From Nitrospiraceae bacterium (GTDB taxonomy: Bacteria; Nitrospirota; Thermodesulfovibrionia; UBA6902): a DNA stretch of 34,457 nucleotides. Where the stretch lies: assembly GCA_020356065.1 (NCBI GenBank), contig CP070632.1, forward strand, positions 1,800,340 to 1,834,796, written 5' to 3'. The notes under the pieces were generated by a model, which saw only the letters and a program-made list of their open reading frames with translations, searched no databases and was not told the DNA's origin. The first letter of the stretch is position 1. Every line of letters begins with the position of its first letter. Below, in pieces: positions 17,227 to 34,349 of this stretch. Both the position numbers and the translations under genes were made by a program.

Positions 17227-19677
17227 TTATTCTTTAAACAGATCACCGTTTACTCCGTTTTCCATGTCGTCCTTTTCAACAACACGGGCTACGCTCACGA
17301 CCTTATCACTTTCTGCAAGGTCTATAAGCCTGACTCCCTGAGTTGCCCTGCCGATAAGAGAAATGCTCTTTGCCCTCGTGCGTATTACCTTGCCGCTGCT
17401 GGCGATGATGATGATCTCGTCATCATTGGTTACCTGTAGCACTCCTACAACCTTACCGTTTTTGGGGGTGACTTTTATGGTAAATACGCCCTTGCCGCCC
17501 CGACTCTGTGTCCTGTACTCCTCGGCTTTGGTCCGTTTTCCATATCCCTTTTCCGTTACCGTAAGAAGGGTCGTGTCATGATCCAGAATATCGACAGAGA
17601 CAACTTCATCGTCCTGTTTGAGCTTTATGCCCCGCACTCCCTGTGCCACACGTCCCATAGCCCTTACATTGCTTTCGTTAAACCGTATGGATGAACCGCT
17701 CCGCGTGCTCAGATTGATGTCTTTATTACCATCGGTCAAGCGCACGCCAATAAGCTCATCCCCGTCTTCCAGTTTGATCGCGTTAATTCCTGTTGAACGC
17801 GGATGGCTGTAAGCTGTCAGCGCTGTCTTTTTGACCACACCATTTTTTGTGGCCATAAACAGAAACTGATCATCTTTAAATTCCTTTATCGGAAATACCG
17901 CTGTTATTCTCTCCCGGGGCGATATATGAAGCAGGTTAACAATGGCCTTCCCCTTTGCCGCCCTGCCCATCTCAGGGATCTGATAAATCTTGAGCCAATA
18001 TATCCTTCCGAGGTTGCTGAAGAACAGGACTGTCTCATGGGTTGATGCAGTAAACAGGGTCTCAACAAAATCCTCCTCCCTTGTTTCCATGCCCATGGAC
18101 CCCTTGCCTCCCCGTCTCTGGCTTCTGTAGAGGTCAAGTGCATTTCTTTTAATAAAGCCGTGATGGGAGATCGTCACTACCATCTCCTCTTCCTGGATCA
18201 GGTCTTCTATGGTGATTTCTTCGGCTTCTATTGTTATTTCCGTGCGCCTTTTATCAGCATATTTCTTCCTGATCTCCGCGAGTTCCTCTTTGATAATATC
18301 ATCCACCAGCGCAGGACTGGCCAGTATTTTTTTCAGCCTTTTTATCTCTTTTATAATGTCTTTGTAATCCTGGATTATCTTGTCCCGCTCAAGCCCGGTG
18401 AGTCTCTGCAGTCTCATGTCCAGGATTGCCTTGGCCTGGATCTCTGTAAGCGGGAATTTGCTCATCAATCCTTGCAGCGCCTCTTCAGGGCTTGTGGACG
18501 CCCGGATGAGCTTGATAATCGCATCCAGGTTGTCAAGGGCTATTTTCAGGCCTTCCAGTATATGGGCCTTTTCCTCGGCCTTTCTCAGCTCAAATTTTGT
18601 CTTTCTGACTATGACATCACGCCGGTGATTGAGAAATAATGAAAGTATCTGCTGAAGGTTTAAAACCTTTGGCTGTCCATTTACAATGGCAAGCATATTA
18701 ATGCCAAAGGTGGATTCCATGGGTGTATGCTTGTAAAGCTGATTAATGATGACCTGGGCTATTTCTCCCCGCTTTAATTCAAGCACGACTCTGATACCAT
18801 GCCTGTCAGATTCATCTCTGAGATCTGAAAGTCCCTCGATCTTCTTATGTCTGACAAGTTCGGCAATTTTTTCTATGAGTCTGGCTTTGTTCACCTGATA
18901 CGGCAGTTCCAGGACAACGATACGCTGTCCTTTCTTATGCTCTTCAATGTCAACCTTGGCCCTCATTCTGACAATGCCCCTGCCCGTGGTATAGCCGTCA
19001 TGGATTCCCTTTTTCCCATGGATTGTGCTGCCTGTGGGAAAGTCAGGGCCCTTGATCTTTTTCATCAGTTGTTTGATCGTGACCTCAGGCTCATCAATCA
19101 TCATGACAAGCCCGTCAATAACTTCTCCAAGATTATGCGGCGGAATATTGGTCGCCATACCAACGGCGATCCCTGATGCACCGTTAATAAGGAGATTGGG
19201 TACTTTTGCCGGCAGTACGATCGGCTCCAGCGTGGTCTCATCAAAGTTCGCCACAAAGTCCACGGTCTCCTTATCAATGTCCTGGAGAAGTTCTTCAGCT
19301 ATCCTGGTCATTCGAGCTTCGGTATAACGGTAGGCCGCTGCCGGGTCTCCATCTATGGAGCCGAAGTTGCCCTGACCGTCTACCAGCATATAGCGCATGT
19401 TAAAATCCTGTGCAAGCCGTACCATTGCATCATACACGGCGGAATCCCCGTGGGGATGGTATTTCTTCAGCACTTCCCCGACAACACCGGCGCTCTTGGA
19501 ATATTTTTTGCCCGGAGTCAGGCCCTCCCGAAGCATTGCGTAGAGTATGCGCCGCTGTACCGGTTTAAGCCCGTCCTTTACATCAGGTAATGCCCTTCCC
19601 ACGATTACGCTCATCGCATAATCAAGGTAGGAGGTCTTCATCTCTTCTTCAATATTTATCGCAAGCCTTGCCATCAT
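17227..19677 (-). CDS. gyrA: DNA gyrase subunit A
   Basis: An 816-aa type IIA topoisomerase subunit that breaks and rejoins DNA in the A2B2 gyrase to introduce negative supercoils. The catalytic tyrosine is Tyr118 in AAYRYTEAR. The quinolone-resistance region reads [14 protein letters not shown] with Ser79 and Asp83, the quinolone-sensitive residues. The GyrA box QRRGGKG, required for DNA wrapping and diagnostic against ParC, is at [12 protein letters not shown]; the six-bladed C-terminal repeats follow. AAGGAG lies two bases from the first ATG and five from the second (19674), so the second Met may be the true start. It follows gyrB across a 580-bp gap that contains a decayed gene. Confidence 0.97.
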
Positions 19678-19909
19678 AACTCCTTAAAATCAGATACCTA
19701 TATAGATATGTTCAGCAGCAGATAATGATAAGTTTTAACAACCTAAAATTATAACATTTTCACAGATAAATATCACCAATGTTAGCTTAATCAGACAGAA
19801 TATAACTTCCTGGAAATAAAGAGAAAGTGAACGCTTATTCAAGAAGCCCGGATGAACCGTGATGTAATGATGAAAAACCCCGCGGCAAGACTCATTGTTT
19901 TCGCCATTG

Positions 19910-20244
19910 TCATGCCTGTCCCTCAGTAGATACTCTGTTGTAAAACGTGTGATATACGTCCTGATCAATGGGTGCCCGCTCACCGTGTACCTGCTTTTGG
20001 ATCTCCCCAGTGGGTAACTCGTAGCCATTCATTAAAGACAATCGTTAATGCGGAGCAAACCGGATATTCTTGCGCTGCGCCTTGGAAAGATTTGTGAACG
20101 CAGAGTCTGTTGGGAGATGTGGTCTTACATCTTCATCAAGATTGTTTCCCCCAAAATCGTGATCATCCCAGACCCGTCAGTTCGGCAGCCCGATCTCTCA
20201 CCGTTTTCAACAAGGGTTTTGTAATCTCTATCTGCAAACCAATT
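19910..20244 (-). pseudogene. decayed PhoD-like alkaline phosphatase fragment between gyrB and gyrA
   Basis: Reading the minus strand from 20244 gives NWFADRDYKTLVENGERSG. After a one-base shift near 20172 it gives WDDHDFGGNNLDEDV (20170-20126) and then FTNLSKAQRK up to a stop at 20045. WDDHDFG(x)N preceded by an ADRDYKxL helix is the metal-binding core of PhoD-type phosphodiesterase/alkaline phosphatases. Further downstream (20029-19910) a 39-codon open stretch, starting NGYELPTGEIQKQVHGERAP, has coding character but is unassigned. Frames are broken by shifts and stops, so no product is expected. The relic begins about 13 bases after the gyrB stop. Positions 19678-19909 hold no further recognisable feature. 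Confidence 0.7.
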
Positions 20245-20256
20245 CAATATACTGCA

Positions 20257-22650
<2,394 letters not shown>

Positions 22651-22670
22651 TCAATTCCTTTCTATAACTG

Positions 22671-22747
22671 ACAAGTAAGAACTAAGAAGTAAAAAGTGAG
22701 AGGTAAAAAAATTAACTTCTTACTTCCTGGTTTTAACTTCTCACTTT
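22671..22747. repeat. heptad repeat tract forming a hairpin between dnaN and gyrB
   Basis: Eleven 7-nt units in register: first purine-rich (AGAACTA, AGAAGTA, AAAAGTG, AGAGGTA from 22678), then pyrimidine-rich (TAACTTC, TTACTTC, CTGGTTT, TAACTTC, TCACTTT to 22747). Positions 22692-22704 pair almost fully with 22735-22748, so the minus-strand transcript could form a stem with a 30-nt loop just after the dnaN stop. It may end or slow transcription, or be a dispersed repeat. Confidence 0.7.
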
Positions 22748-22748
22748 T

Positions 22749-23858
22749 CTATGTTCTCATGGGCATAACAACGCACGTGTAGTCTGTGTTGTCCGGTTCC
22801 CCTAACAGGGTAGGGCTTAACGGCTCCTGAAGCCTGATAATGACCTGTTCTCCATCCATGGCCTGGAGGATATCCATAAGATAACGGGCATTGTACCCTA
22901 TGGTAAGCTGGTCTCCCTTGTACTGGGCCGCGACATCTTCTCTGGCCTCGCCGATATCAGGATTCATGGATATCAATGTTATCTTTCCCTCTTCCAGGTC
23001 AAACCGTACCGCATTTGTTCTTTCCCTGCTCATGATCGAGGTCCTTCTCAGGGCCTTGAGCAGGGACAGCTTGTCAACAATAACCTCTTTTTCATTGTCT
23101 TTGGGAATAACCTGTTCATAATTCGGGTATGTACCTTCTATCAGTCTGGAGGTAAGCACAATATCATCGGTACTGAAAAACAGGTGGTTTTTGTCTATAT
23201 AGATGGTAATATTGTCGTCTCTTGATTCGGCAAGTTTCTTCAGTTCCATTGCGGCCTTTTTGGGAAGAATCAGTTTTTTCTCTTCACGGATCTGTCCCTC
23301 GATGTTTGCGGATATGACCGAAAGCCTGTGGCCGTCAGTACCGACCATTCTCAGTTCAATATTCTTTTTCACCGGGCTGAAATGCATAAGAAGACCGTTC
23401 AGCGTATATCGTGTATCGCTCTCTCCTGTAGCGTAGATTGTTTTTTCTATCATGTTTTTCAGGGTCTCAGCCTTGATCGTTACCTCATCTGTTTTACTTA
23501 CCTCTGGCAGTGTCGGAAAATCCTCTTCAGGAAGCCCCATTAATTTAAACGTACTCTTTCCTGATGACACCTTGATCCAGTTGTTATCCTGTGATTCCAG
23601 CAGTATTTCACCCTCTACTTCCCTGGCGATTTCAAACAGTTTCTTGGCCGGGATGCAGAGACTCCCCGTATCCAGGATCTCAGCCTTGAGAGGTCCCTTA
23701 AGCGCAATATCAAGATCTGTCGCCATAAGCGATGCTGACTTCTTTACTTTCAACAGGAAATGGCTGAGTATGGGCATCGTGGTCTTTTTGTCTACAATGC
23801 CCTGAACACTTTGTAATGAACTCTGTATGTCTTCCTTCTGAATCTTCAGCTTCATCAT
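22749..23858 (-). CDS. dnaN: DNA polymerase III beta subunit (sliding clamp)
   Basis: A 369-aa clamp that encircles DNA as a homodimer and holds the polymerase on its template. Three clamp folds are visible in order. Signature pieces are MPILSHFLL (28-36), FKLMGLPEEDFPTLP, the segment TDGHRLSV in the middle domain, and the C-terminal VVMPMR that forms part of the protein-binding groove. Two ATG codons stand at the start; GGAGG is only two bases from the first and five from the second (ATG ending at 23855), so the second is the better-spaced start. It follows dnaA by 108 bases, as in many bacteria. Confidence 0.97.
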   Translation of the reverse strand: MMKLKIQKEDIQSSLQSVQGIVDKKTTMPILSHFLLKVKKSASLMATDLDIALKGPLKAEILDTGSLCIPAKKLFEIAREVEGEILLESQDNNWIKVSSGKSTFKLMGLPEEDFPTLPEVSKTDEVTIKAETLKNMIEKTIYATGESDTRYTLNGLLMHFSPVKKNIELRMVGTDGHRLSVISANIEGQIREEKKLILPKKAAMELKKLAESRDDNITIYIDKNHLFFSTDDIVLTSRLIEGTYPNYEQVIPKDNEKEVIVDKLSLLKALRRTSIMSRERTNAVRFDLEEGKITLISMNPDIGEAREDVAAQYKGDQLTIGYNARYLMDILQAMDGEQVIIRLQEPLSPTLLGEPDNTDYTCVVMPMRT

Positions 23859-23947
23859 GTCCTCCCTGATTACACCTGTTTTAAAATAATTGCACAGATG
23901 AGGTGATTATACATATGCGACAATGCTATCTGTGTAATCCTGTCTTG

Positions 23948-23956
23948 TCATCCACA
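23948..23956. promoter_or_regulatory. DnaA-box-like site between dnaA and dnaN
   Basis: TCATCCACA differs at one position from the consensus TTATCCACA. It lies in the 108-bp dnaA-dnaN gap, a place where origin boxes occur in some bacteria. A single near-match is weak evidence. Confidence 0.4.
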
Positions 23957-23966
23957 TGATCATCAG

Positions 23967-25304
23967 TTAATAACTTTTGATCTTCTTTATGAGATAATCT
24001 ATTTTTTTGGCAAATTCCTCATCATTTTTTCTTCGTTCTTCAATCAGTTTGCAGGCGTGAATCACCGTTGAATGGTCCTTCCCTCCAAAGTTCTTCCCAA
24101 TTTCACTAAGTGACGTGTCGGTGAGGGTCTTGCTCAGATACATGGCTACCTGCCTAGGGAAGGCAATATCACGTGTCCTCTTCTTCGCTTTTATGTCCTG
24201 AACCTTCAGCCTGAAATATTCACAGACCATTTTCTGGATATAATCAACGGTGAGCGCCTTTTCCTCATCATGAATAAGGTCTTTTAAAACATTCTTTGCC
24301 ATGTCGATCGTTATGGCCTGGCCCGTAAGTGATGCGTGTGCACCAAGCCGTATCATGCAGGCTTCCAGGTCCCGGATATTGGATTTGATCTTGCTCGCTA
24401 AAAAGAAGCTGACATCTTCGGGAAGTTCAATATGCTCCATTTCGGATTTCTTTCCAAGTATGGCCATCTTGGTTTCAACATCAGGTATCTGGATATCAGC
24501 AATGAGACCCATCCCAAACCGTGACCGCAGTCTCTCAGTGATGGGAGAAATGTCTTTCGGCAGCCTGTCACTGGAAAACACTATCTGTTTATGCGTGTCG
24601 TACAGGGCATTGAATGTATGAAACAGTTCTTCCTGGGTGCCGCTTTTGCCCGCAATAAACTGAATGTCATCTATGATCAAGACATCAAGGTTTCTGTACT
24701 TGGATTTGAATTCATCCATCTTATCATTACGCATCGAATATACAAATTCATTGGTAAACTGCTCGGCCGGCGCGTACAGTATTTTTACGTTCGGATTTTT
24801 GTCTATTATGGTGTTGCCTATCGCATTCATCAGGTGTGTTTTTCCAAGACCAACGCCTCCATAAATGAAGAGAGGGTTATACGCCTTGCCCGGTGCATCA
24901 GCAATCGCCCGTGACGCAGCATGAGCAAACTGGTTGCTTGCTCCCACAACAAAAATATCAAAGGTAAATTTAGGGTTAAGAAATATGCCCCGGCTGGCAA
25001 GTTTTGCCCTACGGTCTTCCTGCCGATTTTCAATTTTTTTTATGGCAGGGTCTTTCTTCTTATCCACAACACTGAATTTGACAGAAATTTCTTCATTTAA
25101 AAAATGTGCGATTGTTTCCGAAATAAGTCCGGGGTAGTGGTCCTCAATCCATTCCTTGAAAAATTTATTGGGCACTTCAAGCACGACCTGACCGTTTTTC
25201 AGTTGAACCGGTTTTAATGGTTTAAACCACAGATCAAATGTTTGATTGCCTACTTTAGACCCAATAATTTCTATCGCATTTGACCAGACTTCTTCTATTT
25301 TCAT
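23967..25304 (-). CDS. dnaA: chromosomal replication initiator DnaA
   Basis: A 445-aa initiator that binds DnaA boxes and melts the origin. Domain I (1-80) is the helicase/partner-binding part. The short domain II linker (about 81-105) is Lys/Arg-rich. The AAA+ domain III has Walker A GGVGLGKTH (149-157), Walker B LIIDDIQF (209-216) and SRFGMGL (261-267) with the arginine of box VII. Domain IV ends with the DNA-binding signature DHSTVIHA (410-417). All key residues are intact. It reads away from the adjacent origin-like DNA (25305-25536) and is followed by dnaN. Confidence 0.98.
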   Translation of the reverse strand: MKIEEVWSNAIEIIGSKVGNQTFDLWFKPLKPVQLKNGQVVLEVPNKFFKEWIEDHYPGLISETIAHFLNEEISVKFSVVDKKKDPAIKKIENRQEDRRAKLASRGIFLNPKFTFDIFVVGASNQFAHAASRAIADAPGKAYNPLFIYGGVGLGKTHLMNAIGNTIIDKNPNVKILYAPAEQFTNEFVYSMRNDKMDEFKSKYRNLDVLIIDDIQFIAGKSGTQEELFHTFNALYDTHKQIVFSSDRLPKDISPITERLRSRFGMGLIADIQIPDVETKMAILGKKSEMEHIELPEDVSFFLASKIKSNIRDLEACMIRLGAHASLTGQAITIDMAKNVLKDLIHDEEKALTVDYIQKMVCEYFRLKVQDIKAKKRTRDIAFPRQVAMYLSKTLTDTSLSEIGKNFGGKDHSTVIHACKLIEERRKNDEEFAKKIDYLIKKIKSY

Positions 25305-28610: not shown

Positions 28611-30203
28611 ATGAATAACATGAAAGTACTTGTAAGTGACAACATATCTCCAAAAGGGGTCAAGATTCTCGAAAAGGCAGGCCTTAAGGTGGACGTGAAA
28701 ACAGGCATGACTCCGGCCGAGCTGAAAAAAGAGATAGGAAAATATGATGCTCTGGTCATCAGAAGTGCCACAAAAGTTACGTCTGAAATACTCGGGGCTG
28801 CAAAAAAACTGAAAGTCATCGGCAGGGCAGGATCCGGTCTCGATAATGTGGATAAGGTAGAGGCAACGAAACGCGGCATCGTTGTCATGAATACTCCGGG
28901 CGGCAACACGGTTACCACGGCAGAGCATACCATAGCGCTCATAGTTGCGATGGCGCGTCAGGTGCCCCAGGCAACCGCATCAATGAAACAGGGCAAGTGG
29001 GAAAAAAAGAAGTTTATGGGAGTGGAACTTTTTGGCAAGACCCTTGGCATTGTGGGAATAGGCAACATAGGCTCCCATGTTGCAAAAGTGGCTCAGGGTA
29101 TGGGAATGCATATTCTTGCCTATGATCCCTATCTCAGTGAGGAGAAGGCACGGTCCCTTGGTGTTGAGGTCGTTACCCTGGACAGGCTCTTTAAAAAGTC
29201 CGATATCATAACGTTACATATTCCTCTTACTGATGAAACAAGAAACCTGATAAGTACAGAAACTATTGCGAAGATGAAAAAGGGCGTGAGAATCGTAAAC
29301 GCCTCACGGGGCGGGGTCGTGGATGAAGCGGCATTATACAGGGCCCTTACATCCGGCAGGGTGGCTGCTGCGGCACTGGATGTATTTGAGTCTGAACCTC
29401 CATCTGCGTCGCCTCTCATACAGCTGGACAATTTTATATGCACGCCCCATTTAGGCGCGTCAACGGCAGATGCACAGGAAAATGTTGCCGTTGCCGTTGC
29501 AAACCAGCTTGCTGATTTTCTCGTCAGGGGAACAGTCAGAAATGCTGTCAATGTCCCGTCTGTATCAGCAGACGCACTGCCTGTGCTGGAGCCGTATATT
29601 AACCTTGCGGAAAAACTGGGGAGTTTTCTTTCGCAGGGCCTTGATGGAGGGATAGACAAGATCATCATAGAGTATAAAGGAGAGGTAGCAGCCCTTCTCC
29701 TGGAACCTGTTACGGTAGCAGCGCTGAAAGGAGTCCTCACTCCCATACTTGAGGAGACGGTCAACTTCATCAATGCCCCGGCCATAGCAAAGGATAGGGG
29801 TATTGAGGTAAAGGAGATCACCACAGATGATGCAGGGGACTACCACAGCATGCTCGTTATCAAAATACAGTCAGGTAAAAAGGAATACAGTGTGTCAGGC
29901 ATCCTTCATGGAAAAAAAGAGCCCCGTATCATAGAGGTCAATGATTTCGTGGTAGAGGTTGTACCTGAAGGCGAGCTGCTTGTTATTGCCAATAACGACA
30001 AACCCGGGGTAATCGGCAATATAGGAACCGTGCTTGCCAGACACAGGATCAATATTGCGCGTATGCACTTTGGCAGGGAGAAGCAGGGAGGCAGGGCGAT
30101 CTCGGTGGTAAGTGTTGACACGACAGTTTCAAAAGAGATTCTCTCTGAGCTCAGGAAACTTCCAAACGTCCTTTCATTAAAACAGATACGTCTGCCCAAT
30201 TAA
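28611..30203 (+). CDS. serA: D-3-phosphoglycerate dehydrogenase (long form)
   Basis: A 530-aa long-type enzyme for the first step of serine synthesis. The nucleotide-binding motif GIGNIG is at 149-154. The catalytic triad is complete: Arg233 in NASRGGVVDE, Glu262 in DVFESEPP and His280 in PHLGAST. After the dehydrogenase come the allosteric-substrate-binding domain (about 315-450) and a C-terminal ACT domain (about 455-530; NDKPGVIGNIGTVL), typical of serine-inhibited forms. ATG at 28611 has another ATG three codons on (28620), and neither has a Shine-Dalgarno site because a repeat tract precedes them. It lies in the serC-serA-purA run and is the more credible main enzyme of the two homologues in the window. 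Confidence 0.97.
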   Translation: MNNMKVLVSDNISPKGVKILEKAGLKVDVKTGMTPAELKKEIGKYDALVIRSATKVTSEILGAAKKLKVIGRAGSGLDNVDKVEATKRGIVVMNTPGGNTVTTAEHTIALIVAMARQVPQATASMKQGKWEKKKFMGVELFGKTLGIVGIGNIGSHVAKVAQGMGMHILAYDPYLSEEKARSLGVEVVTLDRLFKKSDIITLHIPLTDETRNLISTETIAKMKKGVRIVNASRGGVVDEAALYRALTSGRVAAAALDVFESEPPSASPLIQLDNFICTPHLGASTADAQENVAVAVANQLADFLVRGTVRNAVNVPSVSADALPVLEPYINLAEKLGSFLSQGLDGGIDKIIIEYKGEVAALLLEPVTVAALKGVLTPILEETVNFINAPAIAKDRGIEVKEITTDDAGDYHSMLVIKIQSGKKEYSVSGILHGKKEPRIIEVNDFVVEVVPEGELLVIANNDKPGVIGNIGTVLARHRINIARMHFGREKQGGRAISVVSVDTTVSKEILSELRKLPNVLSLKQIRLPN

Positions 30204-31565
<1,362 letters not shown>

Positions 31566-31688: not shown

Positions 31689-33710
31689 ATGGAAAAAAGC
31701 CGAGCCATATACATATGTAGGCAGTATGTTCATACATGGCAGGAACCAGAGGTGGCAGGGAAACTGAACATGAAGTTGAAGAAATCATTAATACGATTTG
31801 TAAATTTTATGACATTTACCGATATCCCTATCGGTAAAAAGCTCATGATATTTTCCGGCGGCGGCATCGCGTGGTTCGTCATTATTGCGGCCATAGGTTT
31901 AGGGGCGGTCACGTATGTAAATGATTCTTCCCGGGCCCTGACCCATCAGGTTGTTCCCCAGATAAAGACCAGCCAGAAACTGATCATCAACATGAGAGGT
32001 GCAAACGTCTCTGTTCATAATATTGTGATTCACGATGACCCTGACGTTGTGAACATGAACCACAAGAGGGCCGGATTTCTCCTCAACAATATTGAATCTA
32101 CACTGACGTCCCTTCTGCAGGGCGGGAAGATCGAGGACTATTCTGATCTCAGCGGTGAGTTAATAGAAGAGTTTCAGGTAGAGCCGATAACAGATCAGAT
32201 CCGGGCGCAGACATACATTAACAGCGTGCTGGAAAAGAACCATAAACTCAGAAACATATTAAAGGAAATGGCAGAGCTTAAATTACTGAAAATATCTCAT
32301 GGCGGGCAGACCCCTGAAGAGAGAGAGCTGTTTATGAACAGGCTTGCCGAGTATGATACCCTGACAGTCCAGGCGGTCATGGCACTTGGAAAACTCACAT
32401 CAAGCATATCTGCGCTGCAGAATCATTATACCGGCAACATCGATACCGTTCTTAAACAGTCCATGGCGGTTTTCGTATTCATCGGGGTATTGGCAGTAAT
32501 ACTGGTTATCATATTCAGTTATTTACTTAAAAATTCGATTACCAGTCCGTTAAAGGCAATTACCGACCAGATTAAAGGACTGTCCGAAGGAGAAGTAGAC
32601 CTGACAAAGCAGATCGCTGTTGGATCGAAAGATGAAATAGCTGACCTGTCTGAAAGTTTCAATGCGCTGATGAACACGATTCATGACATGAACACATTTA
32701 AGAAAGTGATCGAGGAAGATGACACACTGGCGGATGTATACGTCAGGATGGCAGAGGTCTTCTGTGAACAGCTGGGACTTGATGATCCGGTAATTTTTGA
32801 GATTGCAAACAGGAATAACATGAAATTAATAGAAACCCCCTACACAAAAAGTGAAATAAGCTGTAACAAGGGCATTCTCGTTGACAGCAACCTGTGCCGT
32901 GCAAGGAAAACAGGCCACACCATATCCTCGATAAGCCATGATAAAATATGCAAACAGTATTTAATGGGCCCGGAGAAATTTCATGTCTGCCTCCCGGTTA
33001 TCGTCGGAGGAACGACAGGCGGGGTTATCCAGTTTCAGTTTGAAAAATCCCTGAAAAAAGAGTATGAAAAGCAGACCCCTATCATTGACGTCGCATGCAT
33101 TCAGAAGCAGGTACTCAAGGCAGAGCAGTATATCAGGGAATCGTCCTCGGTTATTGAAACAAAACGGCTGACAAGCGCGCTCAGGGAATCTTCCATCAGG
33201 GACCAGATGACAGGCCTGTACAACAGGAGGTTCCTCGAGGAATACGTAAATACGCTGGTGGCCGGCGTTGCGAGAAATGAGGGGCAGCTGGGACTGCTGA
33301 TGTGCGACCTGGACTACTTCAAAGAGGTGAACGACAAGTATGGTCATGATGCGGGAGATGCGGTGTTGAAGGAGACAGCCAGTGTCATTGTAAGAAGTGC
33401 TCGTGCGGTGGATCTGGTCATACGGTTTGGTGGAGAGGAATTCCTCGTCATTGTAAACAAGGCCAAACCCGGTGATGTTGATATGATCACCGAAAGAATA
33501 AGACGGAACATCGAGGCGACCAAGGTAAAGACTTCAGGGGGAATAATACAGAAGACAATCAGTATCGGGTTCTGTGAATTCCCGAGAGATACGCAGAACT
33601 TCTGGGAAGCGATCAAGTATGCTGACATAGCCATGTACAAGGCAAAAGAGGCCGGGAGAAACAGGGTACTGCAGTTCAAGAAAGATATGTGGACTGCCAA
33701 TGCCTATTAA
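31689..33710 (+). CDS. membrane diguanylate cyclase: 4-helix sensor, HAMP, Cys-rich GAF-like, GGDEF
   Basis: A 673-aa inner-membrane enzyme that makes cyclic di-GMP from two GTP. Order: TM1 (55-75), a periplasmic four-helix sensor (about 80-255), TM2 (258-280), HAMP (281-333), a GAF-like region (about 345-450) and GGDEF (about 505-665). The active-site motif is GGEEF (581-585). The inhibitory I-site RAVD (572-575) stands five residues before it, so product feedback is expected. No EAL domain follows. The GAF-like region has an unusual cysteine set: Cys392, Cys403, Cys421, Cys434 and His410. The first 27 residues may be excess; ATG for residue 28 (MKLKKSL) is an alternative start. No partner phosphodiesterase lies nearby. 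Confidence 0.9.
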   Translation: MEKSRAIYICRQYVHTWQEPEVAGKLNMKLKKSLIRFVNFMTFTDIPIGKKLMIFSGGGIAWFVIIAAIGLGAVTYVNDSSRALTHQVVPQIKTSQKLIINMRGANVSVHNIVIHDDPDVVNMNHKRAGFLLNNIESTLTSLLQGGKIEDYSDLSGELIEEFQVEPITDQIRAQTYINSVLEKNHKLRNILKEMAELKLLKISHGGQTPEERELFMNRLAEYDTLTVQAVMALGKLTSSISALQNHYTGNIDTVLKQSMAVFVFIGVLAVILVIIFSYLLKNSITSPLKAITDQIKGLSEGEVDLTKQIAVGSKDEIADLSESFNALMNTIHDMNTFKKVIEEDDTLADVYVRMAEVFCEQLGLDDPVIFEIANRNNMKLIETPYTKSEISCNKGILVDSNLCRARKTGHTISSISHDKICKQYLMGPEKFHVCLPVIVGGTTGGVIQFQFEKSLKKEYEKQTPIIDVACIQKQVLKAEQYIRESSSVIETKRLTSALRESSIRDQMTGLYNRRFLEEYVNTLVAGVARNEGQLGLLMCDLDYFKEVNDKYGHDAGDAVLKETASVIVRSARAVDLVIRFGGEEFLVIVNKAKPGDVDMITERIRRNIEATKVKTSGGIIQKTISIGFCEFPRDTQNFWEAIKYADIAMYKAKEAGRNRVLQFKKDMWTANAY

Positions 33711-33840: not shown

Positions 33841-33916
33841 GGGCCGCTAGCTCAGTTGGTAGAGCAACGCCCTTTTAAGGCGTGGGTCGAAGGTTCGAAT
33901 CCTTCGCGGCTCACCA
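33841..33916 (+). tRNA. tRNA-Lys (UUU)
   Basis: A 76-nt cloverleaf with acceptor GGGCCGC/GCGGCTC (one G-T pair), D arm GCTC/GAGC, anticodon stem ACGCC/GGCGT with loop CTTTTAA (TTT at 33874-33876), T arm GAAGG/CCTTC with TTCGAAT, discriminator A and encoded CCA (33914-33916). Confidence 0.97.
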
Positions 33917-33927
33917 TTTACGACAGA

Positions 33928-33962
33928 GTAAAGGGTATAGGGAAAAGGGGGCAGGGAAAGGC
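33928..33962 (+). repeat. left heptad tract / inverted-repeat arm flanking the four-helix-bundle gene
   Basis: Five 7-nt units: GTAAAGG, GTATAGG, GAAAAGG, GGGCAGG and GAAAGGC. AGGGAAAAGGG (33939-33949) and AGGGAAAGG (33953-33961) are the exact complements of 34393-34403 and 34381-34389. The tract ends one base before the GTG start and contains the only plausible ribosome-binding sequence. Confidence 0.8.
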
Positions 33963-34349
33963 GTGGAGCTCGGGTATAGAAAGAGCATTGCCTGGCAGAA
34001 AAACCAGCGGGCAATAGTCAGAACAGCTCAGCTTATTAAACAGCTGCCCGAAGAAATACCCTGTAAAAAAATAGCCGGTCAGTTGTTTTCATCGATGTCA
34101 TCGATAGGAGCCAACATAGCTGAAGGCTACAGTGACTATCAGGGGAATGAGTACCAGCGATATCTGAAAATATCGTTGCGTTCAGCCTTTGAAACAGACC
34201 ATTGGCTGGTGACATTACAATCTCTATGCAATGGTGATGGAAAAAAGGACTTGCAATTATTGGAGGAGATCAATAGTCTAAATTTAGAGACAATCAAGAT
34301 TCTTTTTAAGACGATAGAGAGCATAAAAAAAGAGACGCAGGGCGGATAG
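33963..34349 (+). CDS. four-helix bundle protein (23S rRNA IVS family)
   Basis: A 128-aa member of the family encoded in 23S rRNA intervening sequences and elsewhere (TIGR02436/PF05635). Family features are the WQK helix near the start, IPCKKIAGQLFSSMSSIGANIAEGY with the near-invariant ANIAEGY, then EYQRYLKISLRSAFETDHWL. These fit four helices, and relatives assemble as pentamers. The nucleic-acid role is unproven. I choose GTG at 33963 because the longer frame back to 33882 would overlap tRNA-Lys, and AGGGAAAGG lies just upstream. The gene sits between tRNA-Lys and tRNA-Glu, enclosed by inverted heptad tracts, a layout like IVS elements but outside rRNA. Confidence 0.85.
   Translation: MELGYRKSIAWQKNQRAIVRTAQLIKQLPEEIPCKKIAGQLFSSMSSIGANIAEGYSDYQGNEYQRYLKISLRSAFETDHWLVTLQSLCNGDGKKDLQLLEEINSLNLETIKILFKTIESIKKETQGG

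Follow-up and report, generated by a model that had tools for sequence, protein, structure and literature searches.

The locus examined here raises the question of whether a diguanylate cyclase uses four closely spaced cysteines of its cytoplasmic sensor module to hold a cofactor, and which cofactor this would be. Cyclic di-GMP has a part in the choice of bacteria between a sessile and a motile life. An initial annotation of the window (the whole stretch of 34,457 nucleotides that was analysed) proposed that a GAF-like module between the HAMP and GGDEF domains may bind an Fe-S cluster, heme or zinc, which would make c-di-GMP synthesis responsive to redox state or metal.

Domain layout and fold of the cyclase

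The coordinates of the gene, its domains and the residues under study are given in Table 1. The two transmembrane segments were placed at about residues 50-73 and 258-280 by direct inspection of the sequence. A Pfam match to a four-helix-bundle sensor family at residues 47-136 fell below the cut-off (16.7 vs 27 bits). At E≤1 Pfam lists 5 families for the window protein; CZB, which we take to be a zinc-binding domain as in DgcZ, is absent from this list, from which HMMER filters can drop weak matches. The GAF module opens with a conserved entry motif, FKKVIEED, and ends in a long exit helix leading to the GGDEF domain. The cyclase motif GGEEF lies at residues 581-585 and the I-site RxxD at residues 572-575. 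The GGEEF columns, the R and D of the I-site and the last Asp of GHxxGD are all invariant in a 68-row alignment (A2), and an invariant Asp at that position is presumably typical of c-di-GMP enzymes, not of hybrid (Hypr) ones. Judged by these motifs, the protein should be a membrane-anchored diguanylate cyclase with a cytoplasmic GAF module, and c-di-GMP is the expected product.

Table 1. Coordinates of the cyclase gene, its domains and selected codons in the window. Fractions give conservation among 83 distinct modules, followed where given by the 170-row set or the next band of 44 relatives (see text).
Feature	Position	Strand	Remark
Diguanylate cyclase gene, 673 aa	31689..33710	+	TM - periplasmic loop - TM - HAMP - four-Cys GAF - GGDEF
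HAMP, residues 280-332	32526..32684	+	Pfam PF00672, 36.3 bits (cut-off 25)
GAF-fold module, residues about 337-498	32697..33182	+	Predicted from AlphaFold2 model and PDB match
GGDEF, residues 503-659	33195..33665	+	PF00990, E 1.4e-45, 155.4 bits (cut-off 23.8)
Cys392 codon	32862..32864	+	Kept 83/83; 157/170
Cys403 codon	32895..32897	+	Kept 83/83; 167/170
His410 codon	32916..32918	+	Kept 75/83; 10/44 in next band; not family-wide
Cys421 codon	32949..32951	+	Kept 83/83; 167/170
His432 codon	32982..32984	+	Kept 80/83; next band His 22 / Tyr 22 of 44
Cys434 codon	32988..32990	+	Kept 83/83; 170/170; beta strand in model

At full length, the best match (86% identity) comes from a genome of the same genus. 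The nearest relatives come from MAG records that bear the titles Thermodesulfovibrionia or Nitrospirae. A search of the cyclase's own genome with the window's module at E≤10 returned one copy, and a second, weak profile match proved to be a histidine kinase (L153). Genes read from their sequences as serA-like and purA-like lie directly upstream of the cyclase (28611-31565). Elsewhere in the window gyrA, gyrB, dnaN and dnaA follow one another on the minus strand (17227-25304), an arrangement often seen at a replication origin. Downstream, a tRNA-Lys gene (33841-33916) is followed by a gene of the 23S rRNA intervening-sequence-protein family (region 33841-34349). The listed GTG start of the latter, at 33882, falls inside the tRNA, so its true start is probably further downstream.

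An AlphaFold2 model of the GAF module (m1b24b8316cbb), built from a 71-row alignment (A1), had a pLDDT of 88.7 and a pTM of 0.85. Foldseek returned 142 matches at E≤0.001, and the 50 listed were mostly GAF-containing or phytochrome chains. The best PDB match by VIA-align 2 was the GAF chain 3ci6_B (Z 14.4, rmsd 3.5, 151 aligned). A sequence search of the PDB gave no significant match, the best being a PDE10A chain at E 0.19. A GAF_2 match at E≤1 was obtained for 19/71 members of the alignment (best E 1.1e-5). As modelled, the module is a GAF fold, and the initial description of it as GAF-like held up despite the absence of any Pfam GAF match for the window protein at E≤1. In the model, C392 and C403 are next to short helices, and C421 occupies a coil preceding the beta strand that carries C434 (strand 100-109 of the model). 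A joint model of HAMP, GAF and GGDEF (mef732d0ee759) reached a pLDDT of 85.7 with a pTM of 0.54, so the packing of GAF against GGDEF is unsure.

Conservation of the cysteine set

The initial annotation had located C392, C403, H410, C421 and C434 between HAMP and GGDEF within about 45 residues. Re-reading the ORF found all five there, the cysteines falling within 43 residues. Such a cluster is not unusual for this single protein: when it was shuffled 20,000 times, 1,629 of the shuffled sequences (8%) had at least four cysteines in some 45-residue stretch. Since this test on one protein was not significant, conservation was relied on instead.

For the search of relatives, 30 loci each were read from the phylum search and from the Sulfurospirillum-order search, a part of the places matched. 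A further 20 regions were picked from the list of the phylum search (L155 repeats L134), and 20 more from the weak part of the Sulfurospirillum-order list. The first comparison used 83 distinct modules, counting the window and leaving out self copies (L001, L004), the partial L105 and identical rows. All four cysteines were present in every one of the 83. The other cysteines were poorly kept, C359 in 1/83 (the window itself) and C470 in 11/83. Conservation of this kind in translated homologues shows that the four-cysteine set is not a matter of chance.

A wider set of 152 relatives, from which the partial L105 and L146, the self copy and identical rows had been removed, was sorted by profile E-value. 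All four cysteines were found in 98/98 relatives below 1e-50 and in 44/44 between 1e-50 and 1e-25. Among the weakest 10, C392 was kept in 7/10 and C403, C421 and C434 in 10/10 each. The 44 members of the second band are diverged enough that Ser414 remains in 36, Gly441 in 26, His432 in 22 and His410 in 10. His410, which the initial annotation had counted with the cysteines, is thus a feature of near relatives (Table 1).

Cysteines occur in three of the six peptide patterns of the contig scan, and all four belong to the profile; the relatives were therefore re-detected with a profile in which the cysteines had been masked. Within the loci already in the set, the masked profile recovered 221 frames vs 227, none of them new. 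The resulting set of 170 rows counts the window, takes in the 20 weak Sulfurospirillum-order regions, and leaves out the partial L105, one partial frame of L219, self copies and identical rows. Its mean identity is 35% (3,000 sampled pairs). All four cysteines were present in 157/170 rows; C392 alone was missing in 10, C392, C403 and C421 together were missing in 3, and C434 was present in all 170. Identity reaches 95% or more at K338, I341, E342, D344, C403, C421, C434 and P436, and is 92% at C392. An alignment of homologues, which the initial annotation had put forward as a check on its cysteines, bears the cysteines out.

The same comparison bears on heme. GAF domains of DosS and DosT are described as heme-binding (PMC4601167, PMC8063818), and a heme in the GAF module was among the cofactors originally suggested. 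However, no two cysteines of the window protein are three residues apart, so it contains no CxxCH, His410 is not a family feature, His432 is replaced by Tyr in half of the second band, and what is conserved is a set of four cysteines. We regard heme as very improbable.

A second possibility is that the module binds a small molecule or gas, such as a nitrogen oxide, sulfide or a nucleotide, with the cysteines shaping the pocket or reacting with the ligand. GAF domains are general ligand pockets, and positions 404 and 407 (Lys or Arg in 83/83 each; Arg404 in 44/44 of the next band) and Ser414 (83/83) could hold an anion near the cysteines. The two basic positions do not count against such a ligand, but Ser414 drifts where the four cysteines do not. 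We give a small-ligand pocket a slim chance.

A metal-free thiol switch would control the cyclase by reversible disulfide or persulfide formation within the GAF pocket, involving at least two of the four cysteines; there is a precedent for it, but we judge it unlikely. The methionine sulfoxide reductase fRMsr belongs to the GAF superfamily, and its bacterial and yeast forms are described as making intrachain disulfides in catalysis (PMC6211008). Its chains are among the structural matches of the module (1vhm_B, Z 13.9; 3mmh_A, 13.6; 3ksf_A, 13.4), and hhalign sets C66, C76 and C100 of E. coli MsrC opposite C392, C403 and C421. The profile match itself is not significant, with an hhalign probability of 3.4% for a 4-sequence fRMsr alignment. 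When the cysteines were masked, the pairing of C392 and C403 was lost, C421 shifted by two residues and only the C434 strand kept its register. Homology of the three cysteines to those of fRMsr was dropped because the C392 and C403 pairing disappeared in this way. A simple disulfide, moreover, would not need four invariant cysteines.

Sister lineages and kinase GAF domains

The window's subfamily was defined as the 99 rows with a profile E below 1e-50. The spacing C-x10-C-x17-C-x12-C is found in 98/99 of these, and one row has x13 in the last loop. A fifth cysteine, at position 400, forms C400-x2-C403 in 63/99 subfamily rows and is absent from the window. Outside the subfamily, 58/71 rows have the four cysteines, with a first loop of 5-11 residues and a last loop of 10-17. 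The middle spacing, C403-x17-C421, is fixed in 99/99 subfamily rows and in 58/58 four-cysteine rows outside.

A tree was built from 167 rows without residues 385-434, leaving out 3/170 rows with short or interrupted C-termini. The clade that contains the window's row is supported and comprises 100 rows, each with the four cysteines. The labels in this clade are Nitrospirota, Thermodesulfobacteriota, Campylobacterota, Pseudomonadota and Myxococcota. Mislabelling of some MAGs is possible: L094, titled Proteobacteria, sits among Sulfurospirillum.

Upstream of the GAF module, a CxxCH motif occurs in 0/98 subfamily relatives vs 60/71 other rows (169 rows, the window apart). In 60/60 cases it lies between the transmembrane segments, 21-41 residues before the last one. 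It is likely that this motif marks a putative periplasmic c-type heme in the sister rows. No Pfam domain was found around it in the three rows tested (L206, L181, L223).

The three rows without C392, C403 and C421 (L220, L222, L223) form one supported clade and keep the upstream CxxCH. The sequence C421-x2-C424 is present in 7/10 rows lacking C392 alone vs 5/157 four-cysteine rows. This suggests an apparent exchange of one ligand for another, an exchange that would speak for a four-thiolate site; on the tree the swap corresponds to at most two groups and 3 independent pairs, and so carries no statistical weight. Taken at face value, the losses look like losses of a single site, and the clade of L220, L222 and L223 may offer natural controls that are without the putative cofactor site.

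The output domain is retained in the relatives. A cyclase motif was found in 148/152 (GGEEF 140, GGEEI 7, GGEEL 1), and the remaining 4 comprise two cut by the end of the sequence, one interrupted and one degenerate. The I-site is present in 141/148 motif-bearing relatives. A simple hydropathy count gave two transmembrane segments in 146/152. In 11/152 the transmembrane segments start only 25-54 residues apart while GAF and GGDEF are kept; this leaves almost no periplasmic domain, so the GAF-GGDEF core stands without a periplasmic sensor. At one locus, L205 and L219 (G565:C23:13293-15282) are adjoining family members on opposite strands, one with a degenerate cyclase motif, YSGDTF.

In the phylum sample, 48/245 genomes had a match at E≤0.01, 35 of these below 1e-25. 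At E≤1e-5, matches were found in 78/149 genomes of the order of Sulfurospirillum cavolei, 11/141 of the order to which the genome of Geobacter sp. AOG1 belongs and 8/150 of the order of an Azonexus MAG. Family members carry the labels Nitrospirota, Sulfurospirillum, Geobacter, Desulfobulbaceae, Magnetococcales and Azonexus. Sulfurospirillum cavolei UCH003, Geobacter sp. AOG1 and Geomobilimonas luticola JCM 17780 are strain-named records, which makes the reading proposed below testable. Among the neighbour genes at 71 loci, none was common across phyla; no such shared neighbour pointed to Fe-S, oxygen or NO, which counts against the Fe-S reading proposed below. Neighbour clusters were seen within groups only: purA-like genes at 8 loci, serA-like at 6 and nadA-like at 11 (names read from sequences). 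The purA-like gene precedes the cyclase in L034-L038, and the serA-like gene is also present in L036-L038.

The initial annotation had called the organism cytochrome-rich. This fits the CxxCH pattern in its DNA, which occurs 951 times on the two strands vs 184 for the reversed pattern. No match to the cytochrome bd oxidase family PF01654 was found in the genome; this is compatible with an anaerobe and proves nothing.

Following up weak matches of the searches yielded 10 histidine-kinase GAF domains, in 9 frames, in which C-x7-C-x-C is followed further on by HYC. The pattern that selected these 10 domains already demands the cysteines, which makes their presence a given, and the masked comparison serves as the control. 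In hhalign, whose E-values are for single comparisons, the kinase GAF domains matched the window family with a probability of 96.8, and of 93.5 with the cysteines masked, over 144 columns. Unmasked, C403 fell on the third kinase cysteine, C434 on that of HYC and C392 one residue before the first. With masking, C434 fell exactly on the HYC cysteine, C392 and C403 came to lie one residue off kinase cysteines, and C421 was two residues away from a position occupied by cysteine in some of the kinases only (L146, L149). By this profile comparison the window family is shown to be homologous to a class of kinase GAF domains with an overlapping cysteine set.

One member of this class is encoded in the window's own genome. 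L153 (G000:C1:140900-145400) is a PAS-GAF histidine kinase with Pfam matches to GAF_2, HisKA and HATPase_c. Its GAF domain has C-x7-C-x-C and a later HYC, belongs to the sister class of the cyclase GAF, and is a second candidate Fe-S GAF in the genome. The cyclase L058 of the window family has C-x8-C-x-C-x17-C-x12-C, a pattern between that of the window and that of the S. aureus histidine kinase AirS.

The proposed site and its known counterparts

The N-terminal sensor region of AirS, which we take to be a GAF domain, was compared by its reported motif. AirS is described as holding a [2Fe-2S] cluster through Cys-X7-Cys-X-Cys-X17-Cys in this region; the cluster is degraded by H2O2 and nitrosylated by nitrosoglutathione, with inhibition of the kinase in either case (PMC4601167). 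In the window family the cysteines are spaced C-x10-C-x17-C, in which the x17 agrees, and the extra Cys400 of many subfamily rows adds to the likeness. The AirS motif is not matched letter for letter, as the window has no cysteine at 400 or 401 and has an invariant C434 besides.

Because the cysteines are conserved, the module is predicted to have a GAF fold, and the cysteine set and its spacing resemble those of AirS, the suggestion of an Fe-S or zinc site that makes the cyclase redox- or metal-responsive appears well motivated. A structural or regulatory zinc site of four cysteines seems rather unlikely. Four invariant cysteines would suit zinc equally well, and C400-x2-C403 supplies a CxxC in many subfamily rows, but there is no CxxC among the four conserved cysteines, the Fe-S kinase AirS is the better sequence parallel, and the putative periplasmic c-heme of the sister rows suggests a redox theme.

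We give close to an even chance to a four-thiolate site of C392, C403, C421 and C434, most likely Fe-S, that gates c-di-GMP synthesis. For such a site we infer that the four thiolates meet, that they hold a metal, that the metal is an Fe-S cluster and that it controls the cyclase. The GAF site would hold an iron-sulfur cluster sensitive to redox state, O2 or NO, and oxidation, nitrosylation or loss of the cluster would alter the GAF domain. This change would pass through the long exit helix to the pairing of two GGDEF domains. The c-di-GMP output would then track the cytoplasmic redox state, while HAMP would bring in a separate periplasmic signal.

Somewhat more tentatively, the family may be a widespread one of Fe-S-regulated cyclases, in bacteria that are largely anaerobic and microaerophilic, in which the cytoplasmic GAF cluster would translate O2, NO or redox state directly into c-di-GMP output; in a sister branch, a periplasmic c-heme on the same chain would make a two-sided redox sensor. 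Were the site to be Fe-S, redox or oxygen state would be linked straight to the lifestyle choice in iron- and sulfur-cycling bacteria.

A search of titles and abstracts, with subscription journals largely outside its coverage, found no description of an Fe-S or four-thiolate diguanylate cyclase. The terms "Fe-S" and "iron-sulfur" are absent from the main text of a 2022 census of c-di-GMP sensors (PMC8846402). The fold, the output and, in kinases, the kind of input are known; their combination was not found described in the literature searched.

Several known systems resemble the proposed one in part. Control of c-di-GMP synthesis by redox state or O2 is described for AxDGC2, protoglobin cyclases and HmsD, which rely on FAD-PAS, heme or a periplasmic disulfide partner (PMC8846402). 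fRMsr/MsrC has the GAF fold and redox cysteines in common with the window module but is a free-standing enzyme with no output domain. Other GAF signalling proteins, as described in their reports, have iron centres, and none of them is a diguanylate cyclase. CSK/Hik2 is a GAF protein with a [3Fe-4S] cluster, for which one tested Cys ligand lies in the GAF domain (PMC6949291). VnfA and AnfA are GAF proteins with known or presumed Fe-S clusters (PMC7294313); in AnfA of A. vinelandii the N-terminal Cys motif is at residues 21-26 and the GAF domain at 33-193, unlike the ligand set of the window. NorR is a GAF protein with a mononuclear iron (PMC4601167), held by one Cys together with Arg and Asp, unlike the four cysteines here. 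As these accounts of CSK, VnfA/AnfA and NorR show, there are several ways for a GAF protein to hold iron. AirS comes closest in its cysteines, and differs in that its output is a kinase whereas that of the window protein is a GGDEF domain.
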